DNA from: a virus
Virus record (IMG/VR): IMGVR_UViG_3300007511_000001
Span: 1 to 64,000 of that record
Length of the DNA stretch: 64,000 bases
Strand: one strand, 5' to 3'
Below, in pieces: positions 22,579 to 46,880 of this stretch. A model generated the notes under the pieces. The model was not told where the DNA came from. It did no database searches and worked only from the letters and a program-made list of their open reading frames with translations. The stretch's first letter is position 1. Every line of letters starts with the position of its first letter. A program made the position numbers and the translations under genes.

Positions 22579-24294
22579 ATGGATAAAATTGCTAATATAA
22601 GAGTATCTGATCGTGCTGGAGAATGGGCGAAAGATATTCTTGAACATTTTTATACAATGTACCCAGAATTGATGAATGTAGACGCTCGTGTGCTTTTTAA
22701 GAAAAAAGAACCTAATAAGGGTTATGGCATAGGCGGTCTTGATTTAGGCGCTGTTACAGTGCCTGTTGTTATTAGAAACTTTCATCTTGCTCCGTTGGAT
22801 GTAGCGGTTTCTCAAGAAGGTAATATACTACCTTTTAACCGCCATGTTGTAGTTGCACTAACTAATGATACATCTGCGTTTAAGAGCGCTCCACTATTAA
22901 AAGATTCGCAATCGTTCAAATTACTATTCGGACGTAATGCCTTATCACAGAGAGAAGATATGATTGATGCTAGTAAGGGTGTAGAAAAGACAGCTTCTGC
23001 CAAGAAATATATACAAGACAACTGGTCTAGTGAGTACAATGTTACAAATCTTATTGAAGATTGGTTCAATAAGCAGGCTGGTATAGTAGAGGCAGATGAG
23101 GACGGGGTTAGAGACAAATTACCAAGAGATGTATGTTTACTGGTAAAAAATGCCTCAGCAGATCACTCCTATAGTGGTTATTTCGGTAGTTCACATTTAC
23201 ATGACGTGGTAGAAGAGCGTGTCAATGCTGAACAGTTGCCAGAGGAGTTACGTGATCGTAAGATCATAGTGAAAACTGCAGCTAATGATGAAATCACTAA
23301 ATATGCTGAAACGGGGGATTTTACCCTAATCACTACATCTGATATGCGTACACTGGGTATAGATGGAGATGGTAATTATAAAGAATTTCCGTATATAGGC
23401 CATAATGTTAATAAAGAAGAGGAAGAGGCACTAGTTGAGAAATTAGCTGCTGCCCCCGGTTCTGGTGATTATGGCATGTGGTATGTCAACGGGCATTTTA
23501 CAGAACCTATGACAATATTAAACATAGAAACTAGTACAGAACCTGAAATGATGAAGATTGCTACCTTCGGGGGTACTTATAAGAAGAATTATCAGGTTAT
23601 TCGTCCTATTAAAGATATCGTAGAAGGCGAAAAACGTGGCGAGTACTACCTACCTACTAGCGCTTCGTGGGTCAAGCTAGCAAACTCTAGCGATGAGCTA
23701 GATAAATCTTATATGGGCGTGGCTACGCCTAAAATTGTCAAATTAGCGGAAAATAGCTACACATGGAAGGGTCAAGAGCTTAATAAGTATGCAGAAACAC
23801 GATTAAATGATTCTGGACCTTATACAAGTAAGGACACAATGTTGGCTCTTCTTAATATGGGCGCTAGTGAAAATGATATTTTGAAGATAGCGGAGCTTAA
23901 AGTGGGGGAAGTTGCTAATGTTAATAGTAAATTAGAACTTAAACCTACTATAGAGGAGTTCATAAAAGAAGCTGAACTCGCTGATAAAGAGTTTAAGCCT
24001 ATTTTCAAAATGGGTGAACTTGTTAAGATAGCTGCACCTATTAAAGACAAGAATACAGTTGATGCTGTTTTAGGGCTTGGTTATCTTAATGCAAATGTTA
24101 ATGAAGAAGAATATTTCGAATATATACCTCAATTAGAGGATGTTGCGCAGCGGTTATCAAAAATGCTATTGGATATTCGCCTTGGCGCACTTGATATGGA
24201 TGAAAAAATAGTATCGGAGGCGTTAGAAAGCTTATCAGAGCTTATTGTTACGCTAAAACGGTTAAAACAAACGAAAGTTAATAGGAGAAAGTAA
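22579..24294 (+). CDS. Virion-like protein with many K-x-A sites (571 aa)
   Basis: First gene after a consensus promoter. An N-terminal alpha/beta domain (SDRAGEWAKDILEHFYTMYPEL) is followed by a long acidic part. The motif Lys-x-Ala recurs at least ten times (VEKTASAKK, FNKQAGIVE, IVKTAAND, ITKYAETG, VEKLAAAP, MMKIATFG, WVKLANSS, IVKLAENS, LNKYAETR, LKIAELK). The same motif marks the tags and the capsid proteins. If it is the maturation cleavage signal, this protein would be cut into pieces. Family unknown. Confidence 0.7.
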   Translation: MDKIANIRVSDRAGEWAKDILEHFYTMYPELMNVDARVLFKKKEPNKGYGIGGLDLGAVTVPVVIRNFHLAPLDVAVSQEGNILPFNRHVVVALTNDTSAFKSAPLLKDSQSFKLLFGRNALSQREDMIDASKGVEKTASAKKYIQDNWSSEYNVTNLIEDWFNKQAGIVEADEDGVRDKLPRDVCLLVKNASADHSYSGYFGSSHLHDVVEERVNAEQLPEELRDRKIIVKTAANDEITKYAETGDFTLITTSDMRTLGIDGDGNYKEFPYIGHNVNKEEEEALVEKLAAAPGSGDYGMWYVNGHFTEPMTILNIETSTEPEMMKIATFGGTYKKNYQVIRPIKDIVEGEKRGEYYLPTSASWVKLANSSDELDKSYMGVATPKIVKLAENSYTWKGQELNKYAETRLNDSGPYTSKDTMLALLNMGASENDILKIAELKVGEVANVNSKLELKPTIEEFIKEAELADKEFKPIFKMGELVKIAAPIKDKNTVDAVLGLGYLNANVNEEEYFEYIPQLEDVAQRLSKMLLDIRLGALDMDEKIVSEALESLSELIVTLKRLKQTKVNRRK

Positions 24295-24887
24295 TGGAAG
24301 AAAAAGTTCTGTTCGAAGCCTTCCAGCGTGGTCTTAATGCAGAGTTAACTAAGGTAGCTGACTATCTAGGCTCTGATTTAGATAAAGAAGTCGCTTTTGA
24401 GGCTTTCCAACGTGGATTCAATGAGGAATTAGAGAAAAATGCTGCTAATATCGGCACGGCTGTTGGTCTTTTAGGCGCTGAGATTAAAGCCGGAGCTAAA
24501 GCTGGTATTGAGGCTACAAAGGTTGTAGCGAGTAAAGCAGTAAATGCTACTAAAGCTGGTGTCACCAAGGCTACTAAGTCTACAGGTGATGCGGTTACTA
24601 GCGCTGCTAAGGCTACTAGAGACTCTGCTGTAAATGCTGCTCATGCTACTGGTGGAGCAACAGTTGCTGCTACTAAGACAGTTGGCGCTGTTCCCGGCAA
24701 GGTAAATAGAAAAGTCAGGCAGGTAGCATACGGAGCTGGTGAGAAAGTAGAGGGTAAGGGCGCTACTCGTCTAGGTCGCTTTATTCAAACCCATCCAGGT
24801 GCAGTGGGTTATGGTGTATTAGGCACAGGCGCTGCAGGTGTTGGCTATGGTGGCTATGAAGCTGGCAAGCGTATCTTCGGTGACTAA
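24294..24887 (+). CDS. Tagged Lys/Ala-rich histone-like protein with membrane end (197 aa)
   Basis: Two copies of a 16-residue tag stand at the N-terminus: FEAFQRGLNAELTKVA and FEAFQRGFNEELEKNA. A Lys/Ala/Thr-rich region follows (KVVASKAVNATKAGVTKATK, residues 75-130), like histone H1 tails or LEA proteins, then a Gly/Ala hydrophobic hairpin near the end (VGYGVLGTGAAGVGYGGYEAG). It could condense DNA in the head or enter membranes on ejection. Terminator follows. Confidence 0.7.
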   Translation: MEEKVLFEAFQRGLNAELTKVADYLGSDLDKEVAFEAFQRGFNEELEKNAANIGTAVGLLGAEIKAGAKAGIEATKVVASKAVNATKAGVTKATKSTGDAVTSAAKATRDSAVNAAHATGGATVAATKTVGAVPGKVNRKVRQVAYGAGEKVEGKGATRLGRFIQTHPGAVGYGVLGTGAAGVGYGGYEAGKRIFGD

Positions 24888-25028
24888 AACTGGGTCTGCA
24901 ACCTTACTTTATTTTTTAATAAATTTACCCAAATTCGGGCAAAATATTAGGGGGCCCTCGTTTTGAGGCTATTTCCCACAAATAAAAAAATAATAAAATA
25001 CCTAAAAGATAATGCACGTTTAGATGGA

Positions 25029-25065
25029 GGCCTTGGTATCAGACGGTGCTAAGGCCTTTATTTTT
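25029..25065 (+). terminator. Terminator after the histone-like gene
   Basis: GGCCTTGGTATCAGACGGTGCTAAGGCC with a TTTATTTTT run. Confidence 0.75.
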
Positions 25066-25092
25066 AATAATTTAACTAAATGAGTGATATGC

Positions 25093-25410
25093 ATGGTTAA
25101 GACATATTGGGAACTAATAGAGAAGAATGCCGGAGTGGTAAGTGGTACTAAGCGCTACTTACACCTACTACGGGGTGGGCATGCTAAAACATTAAATAGA
25201 GAAATAAATAAAAATTTAATATCCGGTATGCGCGCGAAAGGTATGGCTGATTTGCGAAGGAAGCAGTTTGTAAGGGGTCTTGCAGCATCTAGTAAAATTA
25301 ATGCCAGGGCAGCAGAGAAAGTTCGTGTCAAAGCAGCACGCGGTTTGACAGCTATGGGAATAACTGGCACTAGTACTACACTACTAGCACATAAAAAGCG
25401 TAAAAAATAA
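25093..25410 (+). CDS. TYWELIEK-tagged basic protein (105 aa)
   Basis: Start at ATG 25093-25095. The first residues MVKTYWELIEKNA are a tag shared with five other proteins of the window. The rest is very basic (GMRAKGMADLRRKQFVRGL) and ends LLAHKKRKK. Probable DNA-associated internal virion protein by tag and charge. A gap of about 175 bp without genes follows, with A/T runs and a weak GAG/CTC hairpin. Confidence 0.7.
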   Translation: MVKTYWELIEKNAGVVSGTKRYLHLLRGGHAKTLNREINKNLISGMRAKGMADLRRKQFVRGLAASSKINARAAEKVRVKAARGLTAMGITGTSTTLLAHKKRKK

Positions 25411-25586: not shown

Positions 25587-25772
25587 ATGTTAAAAGAATT
25601 AGGATTTCAAAAACGAGCTGCATTGCCCCTTGTACCATTAGCTATAGGTGCTGCTGGTGCAATAGGTGCGGGAATAGGAGTAAAAAAGTTTCTAAAAAAG
25701 AAAAAAGAAAAGAAACTAATGACGAATACATCGGATTCACCTAAACCGCGAACAGTTAATGTTAATTTATAA
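25587..25772 (+). CDS. LGF-tagged small membrane peptide (61 aa)
   Basis: MLKELGFQKRAALP tag, then one hydrophobic Gly/Ala segment (LVPLAIGAAGAIGAGIGV), then a Lys run (KKFLKKKKEKK). Looks like a membrane-inserting virion peptide. Confidence 0.7.
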   Translation: MLKELGFQKRAALPLVPLAIGAAGAIGAGIGVKKFLKKKKEKKLMTNTSDSPKPRTVNVNL

Positions 25773-26663: not shown

Positions 26664-27509
26664 ATGAACACTTATTGGGAATTAATAGAACAACACGAAC
26701 TTGAAAAACAAGCTAAGCTTGGTAAAGGTTTACAAACTATATTAAAAGGAAAAGCTCTTTTTTCACCAACAGCTTCACAGCAGATGCGCGGGCTAGCACA
26801 TACACATGGGCGAGAAGCAGCTAAACTTATGGCCAAGGGAGAGAAGAAGAAGGGCATTAGGATGGCACTTAAAGGCAAGCGAGCAAAAGGCATAAGTGGT
26901 GAACTCGGATTTCAAAAACAAGCTTACAGCCTGGAATCAACTCGGGAACATAACTACTTAGCGACCCATAAAGATGCATCAAACATAGATGCATTTTATG
27001 CAAATAAAACCAGCACTATGGCACAGCGTAACGCTAAAAGAATGTCTACCCCAAGGCTTCAAAAAGTTATAGCGGATATGGAATATTCTAAATCTATTGG
27101 AAAGCCGACCGCTAAGATTGCCCCCAGAAATAAGAAAGCTAAGGGCATAAATCCAAAAGATTCAAAGGCTTACAATAGATATATAGATGCTTTAAAGCTA
27201 GAACTGAAGCATCGACAGCATGGAATGTCTAAAACAGCAGGCGAAGCTGCAACGGCCTATAAAGTATTAAAACCTAAAGTATTAGAAATACTTAACGCAA
27301 GAAATTTTGCAGATGCAGATAGAATAGCCAGAAGTATACCGGTATTTTCCAAAAAACTGGAAAAGGTAACAAGAGGTAAAAAAGATAAACTAATATCAAA
27401 GTGGAAGACTGATGTAGGCAACACTATGGAAAAATCAGTTTCTGGTAATACCGAAAACCTGGCAGAGCATTATTTAAATAGAAGATTTAGAATATTTGAC
27501 GATATATGA
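26664..27509 (+). CDS. Mosaic protein with three tag-like modules (281 aa)
   Basis: Starts MNTYWELIEQHELEKQAKLG. A second tag lies inside (ISGELGFQKQAYSLE, about residue 80). A third junction, SKTAGEAATAYK near residue 190, is followed by a block paralogous to the 103-aa protein at 27749 (KPKVLEILNARNFADA versus KPVVLDALNVRSVRDA). All parts are very basic. It reads like a head-to-tail fusion of three internal proteins that a protease could separate. Confidence 0.75.
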   Translation: MNTYWELIEQHELEKQAKLGKGLQTILKGKALFSPTASQQMRGLAHTHGREAAKLMAKGEKKKGIRMALKGKRAKGISGELGFQKQAYSLESTREHNYLATHKDASNIDAFYANKTSTMAQRNAKRMSTPRLQKVIADMEYSKSIGKPTAKIAPRNKKAKGINPKDSKAYNRYIDALKLELKHRQHGMSKTAGEAATAYKVLKPKVLEILNARNFADADRIARSIPVFSKKLEKVTRGKKDKLISKWKTDVGNTMEKSVSGNTENLAEHYLNRRFRIFDDI

Positions 27510-27748: not shown

Positions 27749-28060
27749 ATGAACACATTCTGGGAAATAATTAAACAACACGAATTAGAAAAAACGGGTT
27801 CTGTAGGAACCGAAATGTATAGAACAATGAAACCGGTAGTGCTGGATGCTTTAAATGTAAGATCTGTAAGAGACGCTGCAAATGTTTCAAAAAGACTATT
27901 CGGTAAGGCGAACATTGCAGGAAAACATGAAGCGCTTGCAAAACTTCCTGACGCTCCTAAAAAATTAATATCTGCGCAAGGAGCCAGGATGGGATCAGCA
28001 AAAGATTTTTCCAAGAATACTGAGGAAATATATAAAAGATATTTTGATAAATTATTTTAG
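27749..28060 (+). CDS. TFWEIIKQ-tagged basic protein (103 aa)
   Basis: MNTFWEIIKQHELEKTGSVG is a clear tag. The body (YRTMKPVVLDALNVRSVRDA ...) is paralogous to the last third of the mosaic protein at 26664. Small, basic, probably internal. Confidence 0.7.
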   Translation: MNTFWEIIKQHELEKTGSVGTEMYRTMKPVVLDALNVRSVRDAANVSKRLFGKANIAGKHEALAKLPDAPKKLISAQGARMGSAKDFSKNTEEIYKRYFDKLF

Positions 28061-28074: not shown

Positions 28075-28521
28075 ATGCTCAAAAAACAAGCCAGTCTGCC
28101 TAAGGGTTTAAAAAAGCTGCATCAGCTAAAACGATCTGGGAAGATTAAGCATTATGCGGATACCGATACGCTTGAGTACGTGCAGCGGGCAAGAAGTGCT
28201 AACTGGCATGGTCGTCAGGCAGCAGAATCAATGGCTTATCACAAAGCGCAGGGCGAAACATGGCTGGGTTTATATGGCCGCCAGCATTATTTAGAGCCAT
28301 CGATTATAAGGCGAATGAGGGCTAAAGCAAAACCAGACCCATTTAAGTCAACCGCCCAGAGGCTACAGGAAAGAAGAATAAAAATACTGAGAAGAGATAT
28401 AAAGAGTAAAAGAAAACCGACACCAGGAAAAGTAATAATTGGATATCCGGAGCAAAGCCGGGCACAACGCCAACTTAGAGACCTGGGCTTTAAAGAATCC
28501 AGAATATCTAAAATCATTTAG
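28075..28521 (+). CDS. Basic protein starting MLKKQASLP (148 aa)
   Basis: MLKKQASLPKGLKKLHQLKR start, very high Arg/Lys content throughout, and an LGF motif near the end (QRQLRDLGFKESRISKII). The start resembles the protein at 32151 (HKQASLPSSLNRL). The last codons lie in a 44-bp repeat shared with 30532-30575. Confidence 0.65.
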   Translation: MLKKQASLPKGLKKLHQLKRSGKIKHYADTDTLEYVQRARSANWHGRQAAESMAYHKAQGETWLGLYGRQHYLEPSIIRRMRAKAKPDPFKSTAQRLQERRIKILRRDIKSKRKPTPGKVIIGYPEQSRAQRQLRDLGFKESRISKII

Positions 28522-28537: not shown

Positions 28538-28576
28538 ATGCTTAAAAAACTCGGGTTTCAACAAGATGAAATATAG
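28538..28576 (+). pseudogene. Orphan tag MLKKLGFQQDEI followed by stop
   Basis: A complete LGF tag ends in a stop after 12 codons; the downstream frame at 28566 overlaps it in another phase. Looks like a tagged gene split by a frameshift. Confidence 0.5.
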
Positions 28577-28700: not shown

Positions 28701-29471
28701 ATGAAAGAATCTACTTATCTAAAAGATTTCGCAGCTGGCGCCGAGCCAACAGGTATTTATACCTTCCGCAATGCTTACAGAAATAAGGGCAAACACGGCC
28801 GCCACAAAACGTTTGGCAATGTTGGTGGATTTGCTGGTGGAGCAATACTCTCGACAGGTATGACGGCGGGCGGACTTGCAGCAGGCGGAGCCCTGCTTAA
28901 ACGTACCAAATGGGGCGGTATAAGTAGACATTTAGTAGAAGGTGCAAAAGATTCTTTAACTCTGTTTAATCCTGTCAAAACTGTCAGGGTTATGAAAGCT
29001 TTTCCCAAGGGGATGGGTATTTCAATGCGGCAGAAAAAGCTATTTGAGAATGTGGAGCGCACGACTCAGCGGGCTGAGAGATATGTAAAAGGCAAGAAGA
29101 AAATAGATATTACAACAGGACTGCCCGAAAGAAGTCGACAGGCTTTAGAAAAAGAAGTTTATAAACCATATAAAAAACTTGAGGCAGATAAAATACAGTT
29201 TAGACAAAAGCATAAAATGGATCCTTTTGTCGCTGTAAGAAAAGGCATGGCAGTTATAGGAGGGGCTACAACCGGTACTCTCGGTGGAGGTTTAAATGCC
29301 TTATCTGCGCATGCACAATATGATTCTGGAGTAAAAGCACGTAAAGGTACATTACTCCCTAAGCAAGAACAAAAGAAATTTTTAAAGAAATTAGGATTTA
29401 AATCGGACAAAATATGGGCGGAACGCAATATTATGCCTAAATTAATTTACAAGGAAATTAATTATGCTTAA
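28701..29471 (+). CDS. Basic Gly/Ala-hairpin protein, LGF motif at the end (256 aa)
   Basis: A Gly/Ala hydrophobic hairpin (GGFAGGAILSTGMTAGGLAAGGALL) lies at about 40-68 and a second one at about 180-210. Between them is a very basic helical part. KKFLKKLGFKSDKIWAERN near the C-terminus is the N-terminal tag motif placed at the other end. Overlaps the next gene by 8 nt. Confidence 0.65.
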   Translation: MKESTYLKDFAAGAEPTGIYTFRNAYRNKGKHGRHKTFGNVGGFAGGAILSTGMTAGGLAAGGALLKRTKWGGISRHLVEGAKDSLTLFNPVKTVRVMKAFPKGMGISMRQKKLFENVERTTQRAERYVKGKKKIDITTGLPERSRQALEKEVYKPYKKLEADKIQFRQKHKMDPFVAVRKGMAVIGGATTGTLGGGLNALSAHAQYDSGVKARKGTLLPKQEQKKFLKKLGFKSDKIWAERNIMPKLIYKEINYA

Positions 29472-30135
29472 AAAACTAGGCTTCGAAAAACAAGCTAAAG
29501 CAAGTTATAGCCATATAAGCACTGACAAGAAAAAAGGTACTTATCGCTATCGCGACGGCGAATCTGGCAGATTAGTAGATGTCAAGAAAAAACAACATAA
29601 AAAATACCAAAAAAGTATTGGTAAACCAGGCAGCTTGATCACAAAAACAGCAAAAGCCTACTCAAAAGAACCGGGTTACTGGAACGATGTAAAAGAGGTT
29701 AACAAGGGTATCCGCTGGTTACCTGCAGTAGGACTAGCTGCAGGTATGTTGGGCGGAGCTGCGCTCGCCAATAAAATTATAAATAGAGGTGCTGCTTCTA
29801 TTCCTAGTGCTATTGGGGGAGGAGCGGCAATGGCTGGTACAACTGTTGGGGGTCTTGTAGCTACTGCTATACCTCAAACGCATATCAGAGCTAAACGTAT
29901 TAAACGTTTACCAGAATCAAGTCCGCTCAGACAGCAATACTTATATACCCGAGCAAACCAGGCCAGGCAAACAGAAAAGCTACTTGAAGCAAACAAAGTT
30001 TATACCGAAGAGTGGAAACAGGTACCTCGCAGCACGGGTAGTCGCCAGAAAAGACACGACGAAACCATGAAGCGTATCCGCTCTAGATATGACACTGAAT
30101 ACGATGATGTTCTAGCACAGGTAGGATTAACATAA
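29464..30135 (+). CDS. LGF-tagged protein with glycine hairpins (223 aa)
   Basis: MLKKLGFEKQAKASYSH tag; a second tag-like site ITKTAKAYSKEPG follows at about 60. Hydrophobic Gly/Ala segments (VGLAAGMLGGAALAN; GGAAMAGTTVGGLVATAI) span about 87-140, then a basic coiled tail. A membrane-inserting, protease-processed virion protein is the simplest reading. Confidence 0.7.
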   Translation: MLKKLGFEKQAKASYSHISTDKKKGTYRYRDGESGRLVDVKKKQHKKYQKSIGKPGSLITKTAKAYSKEPGYWNDVKEVNKGIRWLPAVGLAAGMLGGAALANKIINRGAASIPSAIGGGAAMAGTTVGGLVATAIPQTHIRAKRIKRLPESSPLRQQYLYTRANQARQTEKLLEANKVYTEEWKQVPRSTGSRQKRHDETMKRIRSRYDTEYDDVLAQVGLT

Positions 30136-30572
30136 TGACATCCCTCAAAAAACTAGGCTTTCAATCAAGCACAATTAATCACAAAAGTGATCAATTAACA
30201 AAAACAGCAAAACTTTCTGCAAAAATAAGAAGCGTTATTAAAGGAAGACGAGTAAAAACACCCGAGCAAGATATAGCCATGACGAAAGCATTTGGAAATA
30301 AAAAACTTACAGCAAAAGAGCTTGCTAAGGCAGAACAAAATATGTATGGCTACGAAGCGGCTAAGGCCCTAAATAAAGCCCAAGGAAAAGTAACAGGCGA
30401 TGTTACATATAATATCAGACAAGGTATAGCTTCTAAATGGGCTCCAGCAAAAAAGATTTTTGGGGAAGAAACACTAGGCCACGCGGTAGCAAACCAAACT
30501 AGATTAACCATTTTAAAAGATATTGCAAAAGTAAAGAATCCAGAATATCTAAAATCATTTAGTAGGAATTAA
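30135..30572 (+). CDS. LGF-tagged basic protein (145 aa)
   Basis: MTSLKKLGFQSSTINHK start, followed by a KTAKLSAK site. Very basic body without membrane segments (KGRRVKTPEQDIAMTKAF). The C-terminus lies in repeat copy 2. Confidence 0.7.
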   Translation: MTSLKKLGFQSSTINHKSDQLTKTAKLSAKIRSVIKGRRVKTPEQDIAMTKAFGNKKLTAKELAKAEQNMYGYEAAKALNKAQGKVTGDVTYNIRQGIASKWAPAKKIFGEETLGHAVANQTRLTILKDIAKVKNPEYLKSFSRN

Positions 30573-30577: not shown

Positions 30578-30985
30578 ATGCTTAAAAAACTAGCTTTAAG
30601 AGCTGCGTATAGAAATATGTTTAGCAAAGGGCTTAATAAAGAAATTAAAGCCGGAACGTTAGACTACAAAATAGCCGATAGCCTTATTAAGAGCTTACAA
30701 AAAGAAAAAAAATTGAAGCGTATACAAATTAGAGAAATTCATAAATACATATTGGGACGCAGAGCAGCCTTTCAAAAGGCAACAGATCTACAATATGTTA
30801 ATATGGGAAAAGCGTATAAGGGAACGATAGAGGACGCCAAAATAGTAGCATTAAGGCACCATAAAAAAAGGGTTGGGCATAAGCCGAAATTCCCTAGACA
30901 GTACTCCAAAGAAGAGACTCTAAAGCGAGCAATAAAAAAACGAATAAACTTACGGACGGTAAAGAAACGAGAGGTATTTAATTAA
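30578..30985 (+). CDS. Basic protein with altered tag MLKKLALR (135 aa)
   Basis: The tag is recognisable but the GF is lost (MLKKLALRAAYRNMF). Body strongly basic (RHHKKRVGHKPKFPRQYSK). No known family. Confidence 0.65.
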   Translation: MLKKLALRAAYRNMFSKGLNKEIKAGTLDYKIADSLIKSLQKEKKLKRIQIREIHKYILGRRAAFQKATDLQYVNMGKAYKGTIEDAKIVALRHHKKRVGHKPKFPRQYSKEETLKRAIKKRINLRTVKKREVFN

Positions 30986-30990: not shown

Positions 30991-31344
30991 ATGCTTAAAA
31001 AACTAGGCTTCGAATTACGCAAGGAAGCGCAATTCACCAAAACAGCAATAGCCTGGGGCGGTAGAGGTGAAGACATAGGAAAAGGGAAAGTTCAACTGTC
31101 TACAGGATATAGTAATCTTTTAGGTATTATACCTTTTCCATATGCAGGAGTCAGGTTTGGGAGTAGGAATAAACCAGGCGCTTCATTATTATTACCGGGC
31201 ATCATAGGCATTGATACGGGAGCCCGGGATTCTTACAAGACAAGGTCCAATTTGAAAGGTCTAACGGATCTTATAGTAGAAGCAGTAGAAAACAAACGCG
31301 GAACAGCAGTCAATCGTGGCAAAAAAGATAAATTTAATGTTTAA
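30991..31344 (+). CDS. LGF-tagged protein (117 aa)
   Basis: MLKKLGFELRKEAQFTKTAIAWGG holds the tag and two K-x-A sites. The body is glycine-rich and beta-like (SNLLGIIPFPYAGVRFGS). Function unknown. Confidence 0.65.
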   Translation: MLKKLGFELRKEAQFTKTAIAWGGRGEDIGKGKVQLSTGYSNLLGIIPFPYAGVRFGSRNKPGASLLLPGIIGIDTGARDSYKTRSNLKGLTDLIVEAVENKRGTAVNRGKKDKFNV

Positions 31345-37238: not shown

Positions 37239-37558
37239 TATATTATCAACCACAAGTAGTGCAAGAATATCAAAGAGCACTGCCGCCTCATTACGAGACA
37301 GTATTATCTAAATTGGCTTCTAACCCGGTACTAATGACTCTTTTAGGAGCATTAATTGGGCAGTACAAAATGGATAGGCACCCCGTAAAAGGCGGCATGG
37401 CCGGTCTAGCTACAAGTCTTTTCTGGAATATAATAAAAAAGAAACAAGAGTCACAACCAGAGCAAGTACCACCTCAACCTGTGATATATAATCCACAAGC
37501 GCAAATGCCCGTAAGTATTTTTCCACAACCGCCACAACATCGTAGGTACGGTAGATAA
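37235..37558 (+). CDS. Pro/Gln-tailed small protein (107 aa)
   Basis: ATGA coupled. One hydrophobic stretch (PVLMTLLGALIGQYK), a Gly/Ala stretch, and a Pro/Gln-rich C-terminus (PPQPVIYNPQAQMPVSIFPQ). Contains VLSKLASNP, a K-x-A site. Confidence 0.6.
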   Translation: MIYYQPQVVQEYQRALPPHYETVLSKLASNPVLMTLLGALIGQYKMDRHPVKGGMAGLATSLFWNIIKKKQESQPEQVPPQPVIYNPQAQMPVSIFPQPPQHRRYGR

Positions 37559-38280
37559 TGTTAAAGAAACTTGGATTTTCTAGCAAAGCAGGGTATATAA
37601 TTGGAGGAGCTGTAGGCGCTCCTGCACTTCTTAGTGGCTTTAATAAAGTTACTGGCGGTGGTAAAGAATTAACGAGGTATGTACAGAAAGCAGATCCAGA
37701 ATTCTCAACCTCTGCTTATGCACCGATAAATTATGTCAACAAGAAATATACAGAGAAACCTAAATCAGCTTTAATTGCTTCAGCTATTACTGGCGGTCTT
37801 TTGGGTTCTGCGCTGGATAAGCACATCAAAGCTACAGCTGCCGGCGAGGTTTTGGTAAATCCAAATACTATATTAAGAATTAGAAATAAGAAGATCACAA
37901 AGGATTACTTAAAACGTATAAATAAGCTTTCTGGGCCAAAAGGATATATGAGAGGAGTAGGAGCTCTAGCTACATTAGGAGTATTAGCTGGGGTAGGAAC
38001 TGGCATTGAAGACAAACCCAATAAAAAGAATTTAGCTTTAGCATCCGTAGGTGCGGGTACTGCAGTGGGCGGATTATATGCAGCCAACCTAAGAAAATCT
38101 CATACATTTAGTAAGCTTAAATTACGCCCTAGAGTATTGGCCTCAAAACTTAAATATCGCCCAGTGCTGGTCGGCGCTACAGCCGCGGCCGGTGCTCTAA
38201 TGCCTATATTGGGGCATAGTGTACCAAAACTAGAAAGAGCATTGAAGAGCAATGGAAAAAAAATTACTAATACCACATAA
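37558..38280 (+). CDS. LGF-tagged multi-segment membrane protein (240 aa)
   Basis: MLKKLGFSSKAGYIIGG tag, then at least four Gly/Ala hydrophobic segments (AGYIIGGAVGAPALLSG; ALIASAITGGLLGSAL; GVGALATLGVLAGVGTG; NLALASVGAGTAVGGLYAA), one more near the C-terminus, and basic loops. A candidate pore or ejection protein. Overlaps the next gene by 29 nt. Confidence 0.7.
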   Translation: MLKKLGFSSKAGYIIGGAVGAPALLSGFNKVTGGGKELTRYVQKADPEFSTSAYAPINYVNKKYTEKPKSALIASAITGGLLGSALDKHIKATAAGEVLVNPNTILRIRNKKITKDYLKRINKLSGPKGYMRGVGALATLGVLAGVGTGIEDKPNKKNLALASVGAGTAVGGLYAANLRKSHTFSKLKLRPRVLASKLKYRPVLVGATAAAGALMPILGHSVPKLERALKSNGKKITNTT

Positions 38281-39169: not shown

Positions 39170-40085
39170 AATTATTTTACCTTCTGCGGCTATTTTAGGA
39201 ACCGGTGTTGGAACTGCACTGGGGAATAGGTTTTTTGTTGACAGGTATAACAAGAAGCACGGTCCGAAGTCTTTCACTGAATTACAGAAACAGTATAAAG
39301 ACGTTAAACCGGGCGATGTTTTAATGGTGCGTGATTCTCATATGAGAGGGCCATCACACACCGCCGTGGTTTCTAGTAAGAATAGAATCACGGAAGTATT
39401 AGTCCCACAAAGGCATAAAGAGGTAGTTAGGTCTACAACACTTAATAAGTTCCTTAAAGATAGAGCGATTAAAGATGGTCAATTTATTCCTGATCAGGCT
39501 ATCAAATTTTCAGATGCTTTTCGTCCAGAAAAAGTGAATAAGTCTAAACTCAAGCGCTTGTCGGATAGTATGGTATCAAAAGGCAAGGAGTTCAAAGTTA
39601 AATATGACCCTTTGGCTAACATAGTATACAATACTACCCTGGAAGGGGTTGAAAAGGCTAAAGCGACTTGTGTATCTTTTACTAATAGTTTATTGCGAGA
39701 AGCGGGCGCTAAGACGCCAAAGAAAGCTCCAGTGTTTCCAAGGTCTTCTGTAAAGGGCTTGAACAAAATAACAAAAATTAAGGCAAGAGAAGCTTATACT
39801 GCGCCTCTTGGTATGATGACTGCGGCAGCAGGAGTGATAGCCTTAGCTAAAGGCAAAAAGAAAATAGGATTACCCCTTATGGCCGCAGGCGTATTAGCCA
39901 ATGCTGTTCCTGTTACTAGGGATGCAGATAATTATATATCCAGTACAGCCACCAGGATGGTAGGCCGTAACCTAAAACATACATTTTCTACTAATAAAAA
40001 GGACCAGCCTAATCTAGATATGGGCATAGGCGCTACTGCGCTTGGTGTTCCTTCTGCTTTAGGGATAGCAAAGTTACTAAAATGA
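39162..40085 (+). CDS. Permuted papain-like hydrolase with membrane tail (307 aa)
   Basis: KPGDVLMVRDSHMRGPSHTAVV (His66 in the conserved SHT) and KATCVSFTNSLL (Cys170) give the same His-then-Cys order as the protein at 35865. Residues 215-260 contain two Gly/Ala hydrophobic segments. Compared with the shorter paralogue it adds a membrane-interacting C-terminus. Probably a virion-associated amidase or peptidase used at entry. Confidence 0.65.
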   Translation: MSKIILPSAAILGTGVGTALGNRFFVDRYNKKHGPKSFTELQKQYKDVKPGDVLMVRDSHMRGPSHTAVVSSKNRITEVLVPQRHKEVVRSTTLNKFLKDRAIKDGQFIPDQAIKFSDAFRPEKVNKSKLKRLSDSMVSKGKEFKVKYDPLANIVYNTTLEGVEKAKATCVSFTNSLLREAGAKTPKKAPVFPRSSVKGLNKITKIKAREAYTAPLGMMTAAAGVIALAKGKKKIGLPLMAAGVLANAVPVTRDADNYISSTATRMVGRNLKHTFSTNKKDQPNLDMGIGATALGVPSALGIAKLLK

Positions 40086-41632
40086 GATCACCGCAGACGA
40101 TTAAATTAAAAAAATCTCAACTAGTTGAGAGGTTATTTTACCTCAATGGCAATCCTTTGTCCTTGAAGGATTATCGTCATATGCGTCCCATTTACGACAT
40201 GGATGATTCTAAACTAGTTATGCAGTTTGGAAGGCAGACTACGAAATCTTCTACTATGGCTAATATCATGTTGGCTAATAGTATTATAAAAAACGGGTTT
40301 CACTCCATGTATGTATCTCCTACAGTGGACCAGACTAAGGTATTTTCAAATGATAGGCTAGCGCCGCTCATTGAAAGTTCCCCGTGGATTAAGAAAATGT
40401 ATATTAGTTCCAAATTGGAGCAAAACGTTTTTCGTAAAAAACTATTGAATCAGTCAACAATGTATCTTAGATACGCACTTTTAAGTGCGGACAGGCTTCG
40501 TGGTTATTCGAACGACATGATTTTATATGATGAGGCACAGGATTTACTGCAGGACATAGTACCAATTGCAAACCAGTCCATGTCACGTTCTTTATACAAA
40601 CGCGTAATGTTTGCTGGCACCCCTAAAAGAACTGTGGGTACTTTAGCATTCTATTGGGGCAAATCCAGTAAGAATGAGTGGATGCCAAAGTGTAGTCATT
40701 GTAATAAATACAACTATTTAGACGAAAAGAACATTGGTACTAAAGGTTTAATTTGTCGACACTGCGGCGGAGCTTTAAACCCAAATGATGGTTTGTGGGT
40801 TCGCACGGGCAAAAAAGATGCTGAGTATCAAGGTTTTAGAGTATCACAGCTTCAGTTCTTTGGCGCTCCTTGGGTTGATTGGAAAAATGATATCATAATC
40901 CCAATGGAGGATTATGGCGCTGCTCAATTCTATAACGAGGTTTTGGGCATTGCGCATGATGAAGGTGTAGCTCCTATTACAGAAGCTGAAATAAAAGCAT
41001 GCTGCACCGGTGGACCAATGACAGACAAGCCTAATCAAGCTGATAAGAGTTACAAATATGCACTTGGTCTTGATTATGGTCCTGTTAACTCCAATGCCTC
41101 TTTTACATTACTTTCTGTAATGCATAAAATTCCAGGTAAAACAGATGTTGTTAAGGTTAGGTATTTAAAGAAATACGATGGCAAAGAAGCAGATTTTTCT
41201 TATATACATCAGGATATACCTAGACAATTTAATACTTGGAGAGCGACTATAGCCGGTACAGACTATGGTCTGGGCGAGGCGTCTAATTCAGAACTGCGAG
41301 ACCGCCTGGGTGATGATAAGATTATAGCTTACCAACACTTAGGTACACAAAAAGACCGTATAAGATGGAACCAGCGTATGCGTGCTTATACACTTTCACG
41401 CAATACAGTAATGACACAGTTCTTTAACAAAATTAAAAAGAAGAAAATTATTTTTCCCCAATGGGAAGATTTTAAACCATTTGCCAGAGATATCTTAGCA
41501 GTATCTATTGATTATGATGAAGATAAGGGCAAAATGGCATACATAAACTCAGAACCAGATGACGCTCTACATTCTATGTTATACGGGGCTTTAGCGCTCG
41601 AGCTAGTGGAAGGAATGTCAGATGAGTACTAG
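40082..41632 (+). CDS. terL: Terminase large subunit (516 aa)
   Basis: Packages DNA into proheads with an ATPase motor and a headful or sequence-specific nuclease. Walker A is GRQTTKSS (residues 50-57), Walker B is MILYDEAQ (Asp150, Glu151). A zinc ribbon (Cys204, Cys207, Cys225, Cys228) is inserted after the ATPase part. The RNase H-like nuclease has ALGLDYGPVN (Asp331), a second acidic loop AGTDYGLGE (Asp394), and a third near DDALHSMLYG. All key residues are present and length is normal. ATGA overlap with the gene before. Confidence 0.95.
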   Translation: MRSPQTIKLKKSQLVERLFYLNGNPLSLKDYRHMRPIYDMDDSKLVMQFGRQTTKSSTMANIMLANSIIKNGFHSMYVSPTVDQTKVFSNDRLAPLIESSPWIKKMYISSKLEQNVFRKKLLNQSTMYLRYALLSADRLRGYSNDMILYDEAQDLLQDIVPIANQSMSRSLYKRVMFAGTPKRTVGTLAFYWGKSSKNEWMPKCSHCNKYNYLDEKNIGTKGLICRHCGGALNPNDGLWVRTGKKDAEYQGFRVSQLQFFGAPWVDWKNDIIIPMEDYGAAQFYNEVLGIAHDEGVAPITEAEIKACCTGGPMTDKPNQADKSYKYALGLDYGPVNSNASFTLLSVMHKIPGKTDVVKVRYLKKYDGKEADFSYIHQDIPRQFNTWRATIAGTDYGLGEASNSELRDRLGDDKIIAYQHLGTQKDRIRWNQRMRAYTLSRNTVMTQFFNKIKKKKIIFPQWEDFKPFARDILAVSIDYDEDKGKMAYINSEPDDALHSMLYGALALELVEGMSDEY

Positions 41633-42158
41633 AACATATTGGGAGCTTATGACGAAGAGAGCAGCTTACGACGATAAACGTGGTAGGTACTTTATAGCAA
41701 TCCCCACCATATCAGGTGGACCAGAACACATGACAATAAAATTTTTGGGGGACTTAACTGGCAGTCAAGTAGACAAAGTTAAACTCCAAATGGAAGATAT
41801 AAACAAAATACAAAAAATGCCATTGGTTAGTGAAGGCGTTGGGATACTTGGTAGAAAAAATTTATTTATGGTTAATTTTATTGAAGATAAGGACAAACGT
41901 CTAAAAGATCTTTTTAATATTTTTAATAATAAAAAATCACCTATCACGCCACACGTAACTTCGTTCAAGGTAAAAACACCTACACCGCCTTCAGGATATA
42001 ATTCTGGCGGTATGCGACCAATGGATACTATATTAGCAGATAAAGTGGTACTATATAAGACATTAGGTGCCTACAAATACAAATCGGTACATGAAGTTGT
42101 GCTTAAAAAAAGAACCCCCTGGACTTGGATAAAGGACAGATTTGCAAATTGGGTGTAA
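41622..42158 (+). CDS. Tagged 2H phosphoesterase (178 aa)
   Basis: Residues 1-15 are the tag MSTRTYWELMTKRAA. The body has the two HxT motifs of the 2H phosphoesterase (LigT) superfamily: HMTIKFLGD (His36, Thr38) and PHVTSFKV (His111, Thr113), 75 residues apart as expected. The superfamily hydrolyses 2'-5' or cyclic phosphodiesters; T4 Acb1, which destroys CBASS cyclic oligonucleotides, belongs to it. The tag suggests packaging into the capsid. Anti-CBASS activity is inference. Confidence 0.8.
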   Translation: MSTRTYWELMTKRAAYDDKRGRYFIAIPTISGGPEHMTIKFLGDLTGSQVDKVKLQMEDINKIQKMPLVSEGVGILGRKNLFMVNFIEDKDKRLKDLFNIFNNKKSPITPHVTSFKVKTPTPPSGYNSGGMRPMDTILADKVVLYKTLGAYKYKSVHEVVLKKRTPWTWIKDRFANWV

Positions 42159-42202: not shown

Positions 42203-42940
42203 ATGGTAACACAAGCAGAATATGCAGAGTATGGTAAAAAGGCTGCTCGTAGCTATATTGATGAACAGGTACCGCTACACGACTCCCTTGTGAAGGTAGC
42301 TGAGGATTTGCAATTAAATAGACACGAGATTGACAGGCTTGTAGAGGAGGCCAACACAGCTACATATGTCAAGTTATTCGAGAATACTGTTGAGGATGAT
42401 AAGTATATTGAGTTTCCTGTAGCAGAGGCGGAAAAGGTAGCAGAAGCTATTGAGCCTAAAATAGTATTTTCTAAAGTGGCTAGTTTTTCCGAGGATTATA
42501 ATTCTCCGCCAGAGGAAGACGGACCTACCGATGATGAGACTATAAAAGCTATATTTGGTAATCCAGAATCTCAGGAAATAGAAAAAACCGCAGAGATTAT
42601 AGATCATGTTTCTATTGATAAGAAACGAGCTCTTAGAACTCAAATGCATGAGTTAACTTATCATTTTGATGACAAGTCAGAGCAATTTATAGACTTTGTT
42701 AAGAAGGCCGCTTTCAACGGTGTTGATCCCGATTCATTAGGAGCTGCTATCAAAACACATGTTGATAGTAATATTATTGATTCTCTTATTGATCAGGCTA
42801 AACAACGCATTAATCCTTCGGACAGTTTAGATAAGGTTGCGTCTTTGCCAGAGACAACCGGCGTAGTCTTGTTAGCTTCAGAGCTTGTAAGTGTAGCAAA
42901 AAAATACGTTAACTTGAGGGGTAGCCAGAATGACAACTAA
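42203..42940 (+). CDS. Acidic head-core/scaffold-like protein (245 aa)
   Basis: Acidic, helical, and with at least seven K-x-A sites (YGKKAARS, LVKVAEDL, AEKVAEAI, FSKVASFS, IEKTAEII, VKKAAFNG, LDKVASLP). Placed between terminase and protease, where core proteins are found. Core proteins of T4-type heads are acidic, helical and shredded by the prohead protease, which fits. Confidence 0.6.
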   Translation: MVTQAEYAEYGKKAARSYIDEQVPLHDSLVKVAEDLQLNRHEIDRLVEEANTATYVKLFENTVEDDKYIEFPVAEAEKVAEAIEPKIVFSKVASFSEDYNSPPEEDGPTDDETIKAIFGNPESQEIEKTAEIIDHVSIDKKRALRTQMHELTYHFDDKSEQFIDFVKKAAFNGVDPDSLGAAIKTHVDSNIIDSLIDQAKQRINPSDSLDKVASLPETTGVVLLASELVSVAKKYVNLRGSQNDN

Positions 42941-43547
42941 CGATTTTATAGAACAGTATAAGCAAGGAAATATACCTAAAAGCACCATAATTAAAATGGC
43001 TGCTCTTAAGGGCGAAATTGAAAAGCTGGCTGAAGACTCAAGGATGCCTAAAAGTTGGGGAGGGTTTAAAGGTTCGGCTAAACAGCTTGGGTACATAGCT
43101 TTAATCTCTGCTTTAGCTGGCGGTGTAATGACGGCCGGAGCCAAAGGATTAGAGAAGCTTGACGAGAAGTTGTTTGATGACAAACGCAAATTAAAAGCGT
43201 TTAAAGATATGACATCTAAATTTCCAGAGTTACTAAGAGATAACGATAAGAAAGCTGTTGTTGATTATTTCTCTTCTTTATGGCATTTTTCACCTCATAT
43301 AGCTAATGACCCCATGGCGGCGAGATCATATATTAAGCATGCACTTACCTTACATGAAGTGGGCGGTCCTACTTATATGACTTATAAAGATTTGATTTCT
43401 GCCCAAGAAAAAGCAGGGAAAACAAAAGACGCCGGACCTCTTAATACAGCAATGCAGTTTCCGCTTGCACAAGTACAGCAATTCAGCGGACCTTTTGATA
43501 AATATGATTATTATGGACAACCAAACGTTAGTCTATCAGGCTCATAA
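42930..43547 (+). CDS. Head-module protein with one membrane-like segment (205 aa)
   Basis: N-terminal tag-like part IIKMAALKGEIEKLAEDS with two K-x-A sites, then a hydrophobic segment (YIALISALAGGVMTAGAKG), then a polar helical domain. Ends one base into the protease start (TAATG). Function unknown. Confidence 0.6.
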   Translation: MTTNDFIEQYKQGNIPKSTIIKMAALKGEIEKLAEDSRMPKSWGGFKGSAKQLGYIALISALAGGVMTAGAKGLEKLDEKLFDDKRKLKAFKDMTSKFPELLRDNDKKAVVDYFSSLWHFSPHIANDPMAARSYIKHALTLHEVGGPTYMTYKDLISAQEKAGKTKDAGPLNTAMQFPLAQVQQFSGPFDKYDYYGQPNVSLSGS

Positions 43548-45259
43548 TGTTAAAACAACCAGAATATGAATTACATGACTTAGGTGTAAGCGTTGAGCTT
43601 CTCGACGTAGGCGGAATTGCGCCTTTGGAGAAAACGGCCGAGATGTCAACCGATCTTCAAACCGCTATTTCTGCTATAAAGCCTACTTCTGGTAAAGTAT
43701 ATATTTTAGTTAACGCTCTGGGTGCTGGTGAATACTATGGCAGTAATAGAAACGGTGATTACTTTCCGGAAAGAGTTCTTAAACAATATCATAAAACATT
43801 TGAAGCCTTAGCCAGAGTATACAAGCACCATAAAAACAAAGATCCTCTTAGAAGTTATGGTAAACCTGTATTTAGCCATTACAATGACAGCATGCACCGT
43901 GTAGAGCTTATACTTGAAATAGACAAGGGCAAAGATCCTAGAATAGAACAAAAAATCAAAGATGGAGACATTAAGGTTTCCATGGGAGCCAAGGTGCCGT
44001 TTGATATTTGTTCTATATGCGGTCATAAGTCCAGAAAGATGTCTGAATACTGTGAGCATTTACGCAGGCCGGTTCTTAATAGCACATTGTCTGACGGGCG
44101 TAAAGCGTACGCCATAAATACACAACCTAAATTTTTTGATATTTCTATTGTAACCATCCCAGCCGATAAAACAGCTTTCATGATGAAGAAGGTTGCATCT
44201 GCTGAGGTAGCTATGCCTTCAGTTGAAATTGCTCATGAACTATTTAAACGGGCTAGAGTTAAAGAAGCGGAAATAGAAAAAGAGATAGAAGGCGAACCAA
44301 TTGCCGTAGACACAGATCCTAAAAAATTGGTATATGAATCACAAGACGAAATACCGAAAAAAGAATTACTTGCTCTTGTAGATAAGTATGGTGCAGAGAA
44401 TTTATTACGCGGATTGGCAGAGCTCCACATAATGCCAAAGCCTGTTGATTTTCAGCGCATAGTATTACATAAGAACAAGATGTTTGATTTGCTAGAGCAG
44501 CTTGAAAACGCAAAAAGAGTATTTCCTGTATTACCAGATATGGAAGAATCTCCATTCGAGTGTTCTAGAGATTCTTTACCCCATAGTTTATATAATGATA
44601 TAGCCCCGTATGTACCAGATCGCGCGCTGTCCAAGCCATTAATAATTATTCGTATAATGAAAAAATATGCGCAATATGGCCCTCAGATGCCGGAAAATGT
44701 ATTTACACCGTATTCTAAGAATGAGCTTGCACAGATGGAGAGAGGTTCTCATGTGCGCACGCCTATATATAAAAACCCGGCTCTACCGTTGATAGGTTTG
44801 GGTGCTATGTATTTGGGGTATTCAAAATATTTTAAGAAAGCTATCAACCGCGGGAAGCTTGAAAAAAAGTTTCTTTCTAAGCCGTGGATGTTTCCATTAG
44901 TTGCTTTTGGTATCGGCGCCGGTGCAATAGGTGCCCAAAAATTACATGAGGCCAGGCTCAGTGAGATGGCTAATATGAAAAAATATGCCGCAACTAATTA
45001 TTTGACTGGTCTGTTAGTATCTTTACCCGCTACGTATTATACGTCTTACAATGTCGGGGCCAAGAAAAGATATGGCCAACCTGTTGGAACTATAGAAAAT
45101 ACAGTGGCTAAGCATCCACTAATAACCGGCGCAATGGTCGGAACGGGAGCAGCAGCTCTTATGAAAAGGCTTACAAAAGTGGCTTCAGCTTCGCATCTGA
45201 CAGAGCTAGAACCACACGAATTAGACGAATTGTATAAAAAACTTGTACTTAGAACTTGA
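43547..45259 (+). CDS. Prohead maturation protease with zinc site and membrane-like C-terminus (570 aa)
   Basis: Residues 50-210 carry the prohead protease fold: NRNGDYFPE, KPVFSHYNDSMHRVELI (catalytic His probably 111 or 117), DIKVSMGAKV (Ser145) and FFDISIVTIPADKTA, close to the DISxV..PA..A end of gp21/HK97-type serine proteases. A zinc cluster (Cys155, Cys158, Cys169, His171) is inserted. Residues 400-540 hold three hydrophobic Gly-rich segments, unusual for the family. K-x-A sites at LEKTAEMS (residue 31) and elsewhere could be self-cleavage sites. Confidence 0.8.
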   Translation: MLKQPEYELHDLGVSVELLDVGGIAPLEKTAEMSTDLQTAISAIKPTSGKVYILVNALGAGEYYGSNRNGDYFPERVLKQYHKTFEALARVYKHHKNKDPLRSYGKPVFSHYNDSMHRVELILEIDKGKDPRIEQKIKDGDIKVSMGAKVPFDICSICGHKSRKMSEYCEHLRRPVLNSTLSDGRKAYAINTQPKFFDISIVTIPADKTAFMMKKVASAEVAMPSVEIAHELFKRARVKEAEIEKEIEGEPIAVDTDPKKLVYESQDEIPKKELLALVDKYGAENLLRGLAELHIMPKPVDFQRIVLHKNKMFDLLEQLENAKRVFPVLPDMEESPFECSRDSLPHSLYNDIAPYVPDRALSKPLIIIRIMKKYAQYGPQMPENVFTPYSKNELAQMERGSHVRTPIYKNPALPLIGLGAMYLGYSKYFKKAINRGKLEKKFLSKPWMFPLVAFGIGAGAIGAQKLHEARLSEMANMKKYAATNYLTGLLVSLPATYYTSYNVGAKKRYGQPVGTIENTVAKHPLITGAMVGTGAAALMKRLTKVASASHLTELEPHELDELYKKLVLRT

Positions 45260-45321: not shown

Positions 45322-45336
45322 CAGGAGGTTTTTAAA

Positions 45337-45861
45337 ATGGCTTTAGATTTACAAGAAGTTCTATCTAGTTTATCGTCAAAAACTAATCCAGAAGATAATT
45401 TTTTCGCCAAGCTTGCTGAAGATAATGAAGCTGCAGCAGAGCCGGTACAAGAACAAGATTTGGAAAAAATTGCTGAGTTAGAGAATTTAGGACGTGAATT
45501 TGGAAGAGCTTTTGCAGAGGACCTGGAAAAGGTTGCTGTTGGTAAGGTTGGCATGACACCAGAAACTGGTGCTCCAATGAACCCAGCGGTAGCAATGCCA
45601 GCAAACAATGCGGATGTTAATCCTGAAGTATTAGCTCAAGTTATGGCACTGATTAACCAAGCAGCAAGCGGTGTTGGACAAACAGGTTCATTAGTCGCAG
45701 GGTCTGTAGGTGGGGTAGGGGCAGCAACTCCTCAAGCACCGGCAGCTCCGGACCAGTATCCGATTGCAGCTGACGCCATAGGAACTGTTGGACGTGAAAA
45801 AACGGCCGCGGATCGTGTAGTTGGTACCATTTGGGAAAATTACTTCGGAGGTGAAGAATAA
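45337..45861 (+). CDS. Scaffold-like acidic protein (174 aa)
   Basis: Acidic and helical with FFAKLAED, DLEKIAELE, AEDLEKVAVG and REKTAADR. Residues 95-150 are Ala/Pro/Gly-rich. The piece LGREFGRAFAEDLEKVA resembles the FEAFQRGxNxEL tags at 24294. Strong AGGAGG. Likely a prohead core protein. Confidence 0.6.
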   Translation: MALDLQEVLSSLSSKTNPEDNFFAKLAEDNEAAAEPVQEQDLEKIAELENLGREFGRAFAEDLEKVAVGKVGMTPETGAPMNPAVAMPANNADVNPEVLAQVMALINQAASGVGQTGSLVAGSVGGVGAATPQAPAAPDQYPIAADAIGTVGREKTAADRVVGTIWENYFGGEE

Positions 45862-46151
45862 TGACTGGACTATTAGACCTTTACGAAAACATGACGAAAG
45901 AAGCAGAAGTTTCTCAAGAGCAAGTTGTTGCTGACCAAGAACGCGTTGAGGTTATTGAGAAGTATGCGAGTTTCGCGGAAGATGCTTTGGTAGAAAATGG
46001 CGAACAATACACAGAGGATGACGTAATTAAGCTTGCCTGTGCGATGATTGACCATGATCTCGAAGTAGAAGACAATATGGAAAAAGTGGCCGAATTAGAC
46101 GAAGCGGGAAGAATTATGGCGCGTGCTTTTCTATCCGAATTACAGGGATAA
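45861..46151 (+). CDS. Small acidic core-type protein (96 aa)
   Basis: TAATG coupled, GGAGG upstream. Contains NMTKEAEVS, IEKYASFAED, NMEKVAELD and the end EAGRIMARAFLSELQG, similar to FGRAFAEDLEK in its neighbour. Confidence 0.6.
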   Translation: MTGLLDLYENMTKEAEVSQEQVVADQERVEVIEKYASFAEDALVENGEQYTEDDVIKLACAMIDHDLEVEDNMEKVAELDEAGRIMARAFLSELQG

Positions 46152-46180
46152 GAAAAAGCTGAATAATTCTGAGGTATAAG

Positions 46181-46561
46181 ATGGCCAATTTACAAGAGAT
46201 ATTAGAGGCATCCGACATTCAAACCAATCTTGACTTTGGTGATGGCCATGTTAAGGTTGCAGAGGAGTCTGCTGATACTTCTGTGAATTTAGATAAGGAT
46301 TCGATAGAGAAATTAGCCGAAGTTTTGGATGCTTTGGGCGAAGAGGATTCTATCATTGATGAGATGGCTAAAATAGCTGTTTTAAAAGATATGTTAGATG
46401 TATCGGAGCTTACAGAAGATGATAAAACAATGCTGAAAGAAGCTGGGTTAATTTTACCTCCTTTTGCCGATAGAGAGCCAGATCTTAATCGTTTTAAGTA
46501 TCTAGCCGAAAGGCTGGCTGATGGCGAAGCACTTTTACCTGCGGGGGAAAGTAATGAATAA
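46181..46561 (+). CDS. Acidic core-type protein (126 aa)
   Basis: Acidic helices with VKVAEESA, IEKLAEVLD, MAKIAVLKD. Same design as the two genes before it. Confidence 0.6.
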   Translation: MANLQEILEASDIQTNLDFGDGHVKVAEESADTSVNLDKDSIEKLAEVLDALGEEDSIIDEMAKIAVLKDMLDVSELTEDDKTMLKEAGLILPPFADREPDLNRFKYLAERLADGEALLPAGESNE

Positions 46562-46880
46562 TCGTGAAATCCTTAAACAGGCAGCTGCTACTCTTCGTGG
46601 ACTTTCAGGTAGAGTAGAACAGTTAGAGGCAGAGAAACATGTTTTTGACAAAGCACTTTCTCTTACTTCTAAGCTTATAGACGAGGGTCAAATATCTTCG
46701 GGTAAAGCTCTTGAAAAATTAGCTGAACTTAGAGACGAGACCTTAGATGATTTGGTTACGTTGGGCAAGGCAATCGAACTTACTAAAAACTCCGACTTTC
46801 AGGTAAAACTGGGAGAAGTTGCGGATGAAAACAGTAAAGATGGCAATGATCCTCTAACCAGTTTTTTACTAGGCGACTAA
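46554..46880 (+). CDS. Coiled-coil core-type protein (108 aa)
   Basis: Start ATG 46554-46556 (GGGGGA upstream) gives MNNREILKQAAATLRG, a tag with K-Q-A. Coiled coil follows; LEKLAELRD and a C-terminal FLLGD. Probably scaffold or core. Confidence 0.6.
   Translation: MNNREILKQAAATLRGLSGRVEQLEAEKHVFDKALSLTSKLIDEGQISSGKALEKLAELRDETLDDLVTLGKAIELTKNSDFQVKLGEVADENSKDGNDPLTSFLLGD

Follow-up and report, generated by a model that had tools for sequence, protein, structure and literature searches.

A stretch of 64,000 nucleotides (positions 1 to 64,000 of the 189,182 bp IMG/VR virus record IMGVR_UViG_3300007511_000001; hereafter the window) from a large uncultivated phage encodes, beside the head genes, about 14 small proteins, most of them basic and otherwise without relation to each other, that carry short N-terminal leaders, or tags, ending in [hydrophobic]-x-Lys-x-Ala. 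It is highly probable that these tags are capsid-targeting leaders, predicted to be removed by the prohead protease. Because the K-x-A ending is common to the leaders of the coat protein and of the protease itself, the leaders very probably send their cargo into the head and are then cut off. The proposed system works like that of phage T4, with another cut site and other leader sequences. Every open reading frame (ORF) between 20 and 48 kb was inspected, genes of the whole record were called with a simple home-made caller, and the tag motifs were scanned over all 189 kb in six frames. Genes are named here by their start positions.

Two main leaders recur across 24.3–42.2 kb on otherwise unrelated proteins. 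The M-x-T-[YF]-[WL]-E-[LI] leader (TYWEL type) was present in six genes (25093, 26664, 27749, 36367, 36587, and 41622), all of which had been named in a preliminary description of the sequence. The MLK[KE]LGF leader (LGF type) was clean in five genes (25587, 29464, 30991, 33899, and 37558), while 30135 carries a longer form, MTSLKKLGF...LTKTA, with the motif three residues in. That description had also listed 28538, which is a 12-codon frame followed by a stop, and 30578 as an altered copy, which has no LGF; neither could be retained. Three further genes have related leaders (24294, 28075, and 32151); the doubled FEAFQRGxNxEL at 24294 had been read correctly, and the other two are additions, so that the family of about 15 proteins first proposed is real but numbers about 14. 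In genes or gene-like frames, LxxLGF occurred in 11 copies, all on the + strand and only within 25.5–37.6 kb of the 189-kb genome, and six-frame matches outside this interval were all broken by stops. LRDLGF or LKKLGF without K-x-A was also found at the C-terminal end, or close to it, in 28075, 28701, and 32414 (window positions 28474, 29382, and 32666); these copies, like a degraded one in 36855, had been missed in the preliminary description. The leaders end in [hydrophobic]-x-Lys-x-Ala, with Ala sometimes replaced by Gly or Ser; the Ala counts of the leader-end tabulation are too low, as the script caught an earlier K-L-G in a few rows. In the leader peptides MLKELGFEKTARLQ and MANTYWELMTKEAAPV, the proposed cuts fall after KTA and KEA. 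The genes concerned are as follows, a slash marking the proposed cut.

24294..24887 (+): basic protein with doubled leader FEAFQRGxNxELxKxA; LTKVA ends at residue 22, LEKNA at residue 50
25093..25410 (+): tagged protein, TYWEL type, MVKTYWELIEKNA/G
25587..25772 (+): tagged protein, LGF type, MLKELGFQKRA/A
26664..27509 (+): tagged protein, MNTYWELIEQHELEKQA/K; ELGFQKQA also internal
27749..28060 (+): tagged protein, MNTFWEIIKQHELEKTG/S; cargo akin to that of 26664
28075..28521 (+): short leader MLKKQA/SLP; LRDLGF near C-terminus
28538..28576 (+): tag-like 12-codon frame MLKKLGFQQDEI, then stop; no intact tagged gene
28701..29471 (+): untagged, its start coinciding with the proposed cut site; LKKLGF near C-terminus; family tagged in related genomes G006 and G007
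29464..30135 (+): tagged protein, MLKKLGFEKQA/K
30135..30572 (+): longer LGF leader, MTSLKKLGFQSSTINHKSDQLTKTA/K
30578..30985 (+): reads MLKKLALRAAYR, without LGF motif, not counted as tagged
30991..31344 (+): tagged protein, MLKKLGFELRKEA/QFTKTA/I
32151..32417 (+): short leader MHKQA/SLP, TTG start, like the 28075 N-terminus
32414..32686 (+): protein with C-terminal LRDLGF
33899..34303 (+): tagged protein, MLKELGFEKTA/R; orthologues in G001 and G007 also tagged
36367..36594 (+): tagged protein, MNTFLELSETNPTKEQLKKNA/A
36587..36898 (+): tagged protein, MANTYWELMTKEA/A
36855..37238 (+): degraded tag (LTKLGF without K-x-A); orthologue of a tagged G001 protein, MLKTLGFTKKA/F
37558..38280 (+): tagged protein, MLKKLGFSSKA/G; tagged orthologue in G001
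41622..42158 (+): tagged protein, MSTRTYWELMTKRA/A, weak LigT-like match; tagged orthologue in G001

The small gene that follows the frame MLKKLGFQQDEI begins at 28566 and is read in a different frame (window 28538–28691); the broken frame is either a natural frameshift or an assembly error. An untagged protein of the same zone (window 32690–33193) has a DnaJ domain at its C-terminus (PF00226, E 4e-8).

The recurrence of the leaders was compared with chance. Within the zone, 26 pairs of similar N-termini were found, against a mean of 0.4 in shuffled N-termini and 0.4 in internal windows; among related phage genomes (labelled G001, G006, G007, and so on), G001 gave 6 against 0.08 and G006 gave 11 against 0.1. 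The strict motif [LIMFVY]xKxA (hydrophobic-x-Lys-x-Ala) was located in residues 2–25 of 14 of the 28 zone genes that encode 60 or more amino acids, with 0.97 expected, which bears out the earlier statement that the tags end in Lys-x-Ala. Outside the zone, none of the 16 tail genes and 3 of the 164 other genes had it there. The median isoelectric point was 10.2 in the zone against 5.8 elsewhere in the genome, in agreement with the earlier view of the tagged proteins as mostly basic. Most of the cargo had no Pfam or PHROG match, and weak GemA, RepB, and CsmC matches were not used. For the 28701 protein, a scan of viral contigs returned no relatives.

The same K-x-A signature was present in the adjoining head genes, which are listed here together with the terminase gene and the 22579 gene upstream of the zone.

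22579..24294 (+): 571-amino-acid protein, 13 strict-motif sites against 1.25 expected
40082..41632 (+): terminase large subunit
42203..42940 (+): head-region protein, 7 K-x-A sites against 0.57 expected
42930..43547 (+): head-region protein, 3 K-x-A sites
43547..45259 (+): predicted prohead protease, K29-x-A31 in its own N-terminal arm (phrog_18299 head maturation protease, E 5e-11)
45337..45861 (+): acidic scaffold/core candidate, 3 K-x-A sites
45861..46151 (+): acidic scaffold/core candidate, 4 K-x-A sites
46181..46561 (+): acidic scaffold/core candidate, 3 K-x-A sites
46554..46880 (+): acidic scaffold/core candidate, 2 K-x-A sites
47368..48294 (+): major capsid protein, propeptide MSYDVDPKVLTELFLTKMDTDMEKTA/AEAGAFVR (phrog_2522, E 7e-4)

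Alignment of 11 major capsid proteins (30–79% identity to 47368) revealed that K24 and A26 were invariant, while most of the preceding arm was variable. Among distinct major capsid proteins from fetched viral loci and cultured relatives, K-x-A ended the N-terminal arm in 49 of 49, lying 2–6 residues from a conserved Phe in 46 and 7 residues in three. In the protease, neither K29 nor A31 varied in an alignment of 9 sequences or in a second one of 11, and H94, H95, and S145 were likewise invariant. The structure model of the protease, whose alignment left out two rows from public phage records, showed residues 1–30 disordered and the fold beginning at residue 35, which would fit removal of the arm after A31. 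The best PDB matches of this model were three T4 gp21 chains (5jbl, E 1.4e-3 to 2.1e-3, probability 1.00), with the herpesvirus proteases (assemblins) ranking further down. A PDB sequence search with the protease profile gave no match, and gp21 was found by fold comparison only. Based on the model, 43547 is predicted to be a prohead serine protease of the gp21/assemblin fold.

Some further features were observed in these gene groups. The G001 protease (L034:11110-13923) has an intein-like insertion ahead of a conserved CSIC motif, and the G001 terminase is unusually long (888 amino acids). The tail proteins (window 50000–70000) contain 153 Ser-Gly dipeptides against 49 expected, and an ORF at window 15749–16063 has a tandem, microsatellite-like Ile-Ile-Ala run.

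Across the eight head genes (42.2–48.3 kb), the strict motif occurred 30 times against 4.4 expected, and in non-structural genes 58 times against 59.9. The tail gene set, which includes 22579, gave 17 against 7.7, with 13 of these in 22579 alone. As a guard against hindsight, all residue pairs were ranked at four spacings. In the window's head genes, KxA and not LxE came out as the most enriched pair; it also ranked first in those of G009, G012, and G013, and second in those of Salmonella phage Arash and G006. Calibration on T4 recovered the known motif [LI]xE[AGS] in the gp21 substrates (19 against 5.3) and gave no enrichment of KxA (6 against 4.3). The 22579 protein is probably an internal or core head protein that is cut many times. 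A 370-amino-acid protein distant from the head genes (L007:12695-13804; genome 164695–165807) contained 9 K-x-A sites against 0.8 expected and is probably another processed head protein. In mycobacteriophage Alice (cluster C1), a distant relative with respect to the protease, the capsid protein had no comparable K-x-A arm and the head genes had few strict motifs; the K-x-A rule therefore looks limited to the present phage group.

A capsid protein profile search of IMG/VR returned 384 relatives, of which 80 were kept. LGF and TFWEL leaders were also present in G001 (79% major capsid protein identity), and G007 carried MQLTKLGFHKIA, MLHELGFHKMA, and MLPFHKSA. Other leaders occupied the same gene neighbourhood in G006 (MDKAxxVFxKYA, 7 proteins), G013 (MKYFEKxA, 8), G019 (MKYFTKxA or MKYFEKxA, 7), and G020 (MTDKAxxILxKxA, 3), and scattered MDKA-type leaders were seen in G015, G016, G018, G021, and G022. 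A third kind of leader in the relatives, GFxDELxKLA, is similar to the FEAFQRG leader. The tag patterns matched once in 227 control proteins. No recurring leader group above clustering noise was detected in G009, G010, G012, G014, G016, G017, or G021–G023; the more distant G009, G010, and G012 kept the K-x-A rule without a recurring leader.

Several families in these genomes behaved as natural leader swaps. The SNF2 helicase begins with MDKALHVFNKYA in G006, MRYFEKNA in G013, and MKYFTKLA in G019, and is untagged in four genomes: the present phage (66375), G001, G007, and Arash. The LigD-like DNA ligase reads MGKYFTKTSMSKKQA/PGIPDR in G018 and starts with MPIGIPDR, MTPIGIPDR, or MILGIPDK in others. 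Members of the 28701 family begin with MLPFHKSA/AKDSS in G007, MDKAQYIFEKLG/KDSS in G006, and MKESTY in the present phage, and two related G006 proteins stand one leader apart (MKDKATYIFEKIA/KTALVRAF and MIRAVKAR). In these swap cases, the untagged homologues start where the cut is proposed or close to it. In the present genome, the SNF2 helicase is followed by a LigD-N/ATP-dependent DNA ligase beside the tail genes (L002:4375-7055; genome 66375–69055), and tagged versions of these occur in relatives.

If the tags were processing sites only, the proteins that bear them would be prohead core or scaffold parts that are cut up, and not delivered cargo. The core candidates and 22579 are indeed full of K-x-A sites, and T4 core proteins are likewise degraded. 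However, most tagged proteins have one or two strict motifs, close to the N-terminus, and the unbiased pair scan revealed no KxA signal in zone proteins beyond residue 25. Moreover, the tagged proteins are basic and the core candidates acidic, and the cargo varies between phages, including SNF2 helicases and a DNA ligase, which leaves this explanation unlikely. It is less probable still that the tags send the proteins elsewhere, for example to a host complex, a membrane, or a shell like that of a phage nucleus, with the K-x-A ending being incidental. Several cargo proteins have Gly/Ala-rich, membrane-like stretches, and large phages have targeting tags of other kinds, but such a destination would give no account of the K-x-A shared with the arm ends of the coat protein and protease. 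Signal peptides in particular were considered and rejected, as the tags have no hydrophobic core. Descent from one paralogue family that kept only its start would account for the relatedness of 26664 and 27749, but these were the sole related pair among the zone proteins once 20 residues were stripped, and in relatives one tag type stands on helicase, DUF5662, and other proteins. A single family, to which only a very slim chance was given, was rejected on this ground, and the earlier description of the tagged proteins as otherwise unrelated holds except for this pair. Recent duplications, recombination sites, or translation-start elements at the DNA level, which the position of the tags at gene starts within a dense small-gene array might suggest, were dismissed as scarcely credible because the tag codons show synonymous differences at Leu, Gly, Phe, and Lys, which places the conservation at the protein level, while upstream sequences differ in G013 and G019 and some copies are C-terminal.

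The capsid-loading interpretation offered in the preliminary description was instead supported by the adjoining gp21-like protease, the common K-x-A signature, and the lineage-specific leaders in the same neighbourhood of relatives. The closest parallel is T4, in which the small basic internal proteins IPI, IPII, and IPIII share an N-terminal leader of about 10 residues and are cut by gp21, whose fold the present protease is predicted to share. As in a T4-type system, the protease is encoded here with the head genes. As with the T4-type capsid-targeting sequence, the leader is common to otherwise unrelated proteins, and its cut signature is common to the major capsid protein and protease. In IPIII, the leading 10 residues are enough for loading, and targeting and cutting depend on separable residues (PMC9026906). 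As to the resemblance in sequence that had been proposed, the TYWEL tag at 25093 is weakly similar to T4 MKTYQEFIAEA (KTYWELI against KTYQEFI; best single-pair shuffle p 0.002, although an untagged gene scores higher), and the LGF leaders show no similarity to the T4 leader. T4 further differs in cutting after [LI]xE, whereas the leaders here end in K-x-A; about 14 tagged genes lie here in one stretch, the leader type changes between lineages, and the cargo of relatives includes SNF2 helicases and a ligase.

In phages phiKZ and SPN3US (SPN3US prohead protease gp245), many head proteins likewise lose N-terminal propeptides to a gp21-like protease. The proteases of T4 (gp21), phiKZ, and SPN3US cleave after Glu, the latter two after S/A-x-E or A-x-E, whereas KxA is the enriched pair here. 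The SPN3US propeptides are mostly of 111–254 residues, the shortest being 20–24 (PMC10052503), and no shared short tag is described for either phage in the portions of the sources available. The first 30 residues of the P1 antirestriction head protein DarB carry a reporter into the capsid (PMC9024508). DarB differs in being a single cargo, and no shared leader family is described for it in the portions available. The herpesvirus assemblin has a fold related to the present protease and differs in cutting the scaffold release and maturation sites, without cargo leaders. Assemblin also cuts after Ala, at [VLI]-x-Ala/Ser. No description of K-x-A processing or of such tags was found in the open literature, the coverage of which was incomplete.

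Among cultured phages, Arash and the Vibrio phages D69, D148, and D181 have a major capsid protein, protease, and terminase homologous to those of the present phage, and in Arash and D181 both the major capsid protein and the protease contain K-x-A, as here. Unlike the present phage, these four showed no large tag array but only isolated genes, for example Arash gp95 (MSLHKLA) and gp100 (MEKQA). The strict motif occurred 32 times against 5.8 expected in Arash head genes and 76 against 72.6 in its non-structural genes. Mass spectrometry of purified Arash particles detected abundant gp217, the SNF2 helicase relative, with 38 unique peptides and 1148 spectra, together with the protease homologue gp222 and gp218, gp220, gp221, gp223, and gp242; protease or cleavage was not mentioned in that paper (PMC10585845). 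The latter five proteins are KxA-rich, and gp242, with 8 K-x-A sites, may be a processed head protein too.

Several points weigh against capsid targeting by these leaders. The Arash particle list includes likely contaminants (ribonucleotide reductase and primase) and the gp217 helicase is itself untagged; its detection is therefore support and not proof. No virion proteomics was found for this phage or for any many-tagged phage. The exact scissile bond was inferred, and the small genes depend on the home-made caller. The tag is absent from some zone proteins, and a simple N-terminal leader model leaves the C-terminal LGF copies without K-x-A unexplained.

In the proposed mechanism, the front of the leader (aromatic/LGF or YWEL) would dock on the prohead core, which the acidic core proteins at 45.3–46.9 kb would form, and the forming prohead would close around the docked cargo. 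The gp21-like protease would then cut after the Ala of K-x-A with loss of the leader, and the mature basic protein would stay with the packaged DNA; its entry into the host together with the DNA is suggested by analogy with T4 and P1. Each lineage would have its own leader sequence or sequences under the same cut rule, and cargo would be gained or lost through the gain or loss of leaders. As a guess, the C-terminal LGF copies without K-x-A may be uncut docking signals, that is, docking sites that are never removed.

On the whole, it seems reasonably probable that, across a large and mostly uncultivated phage group, the prohead protease follows a Lys-x-Ala rule and lineages load their head proteins by short address labels of their own, the set of proteins so packaged being changeable and extending to SNF2 helicases and a DNA ligase, and that the injected proteins of such phages can be predicted from sequence. 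If this is true, a sequence rule would list the head-carried, probably injected proteins of these phages, most of which have no known domain. A K-x-A cutting rule would also join a protease family whose large-phage members, as far as described in the available portions of the sources, cut after Glu. Capsid-loading leaders would then be swappable between cargoes and replaceable between lineages, and they would be candidate tools for loading proteins into capsids.

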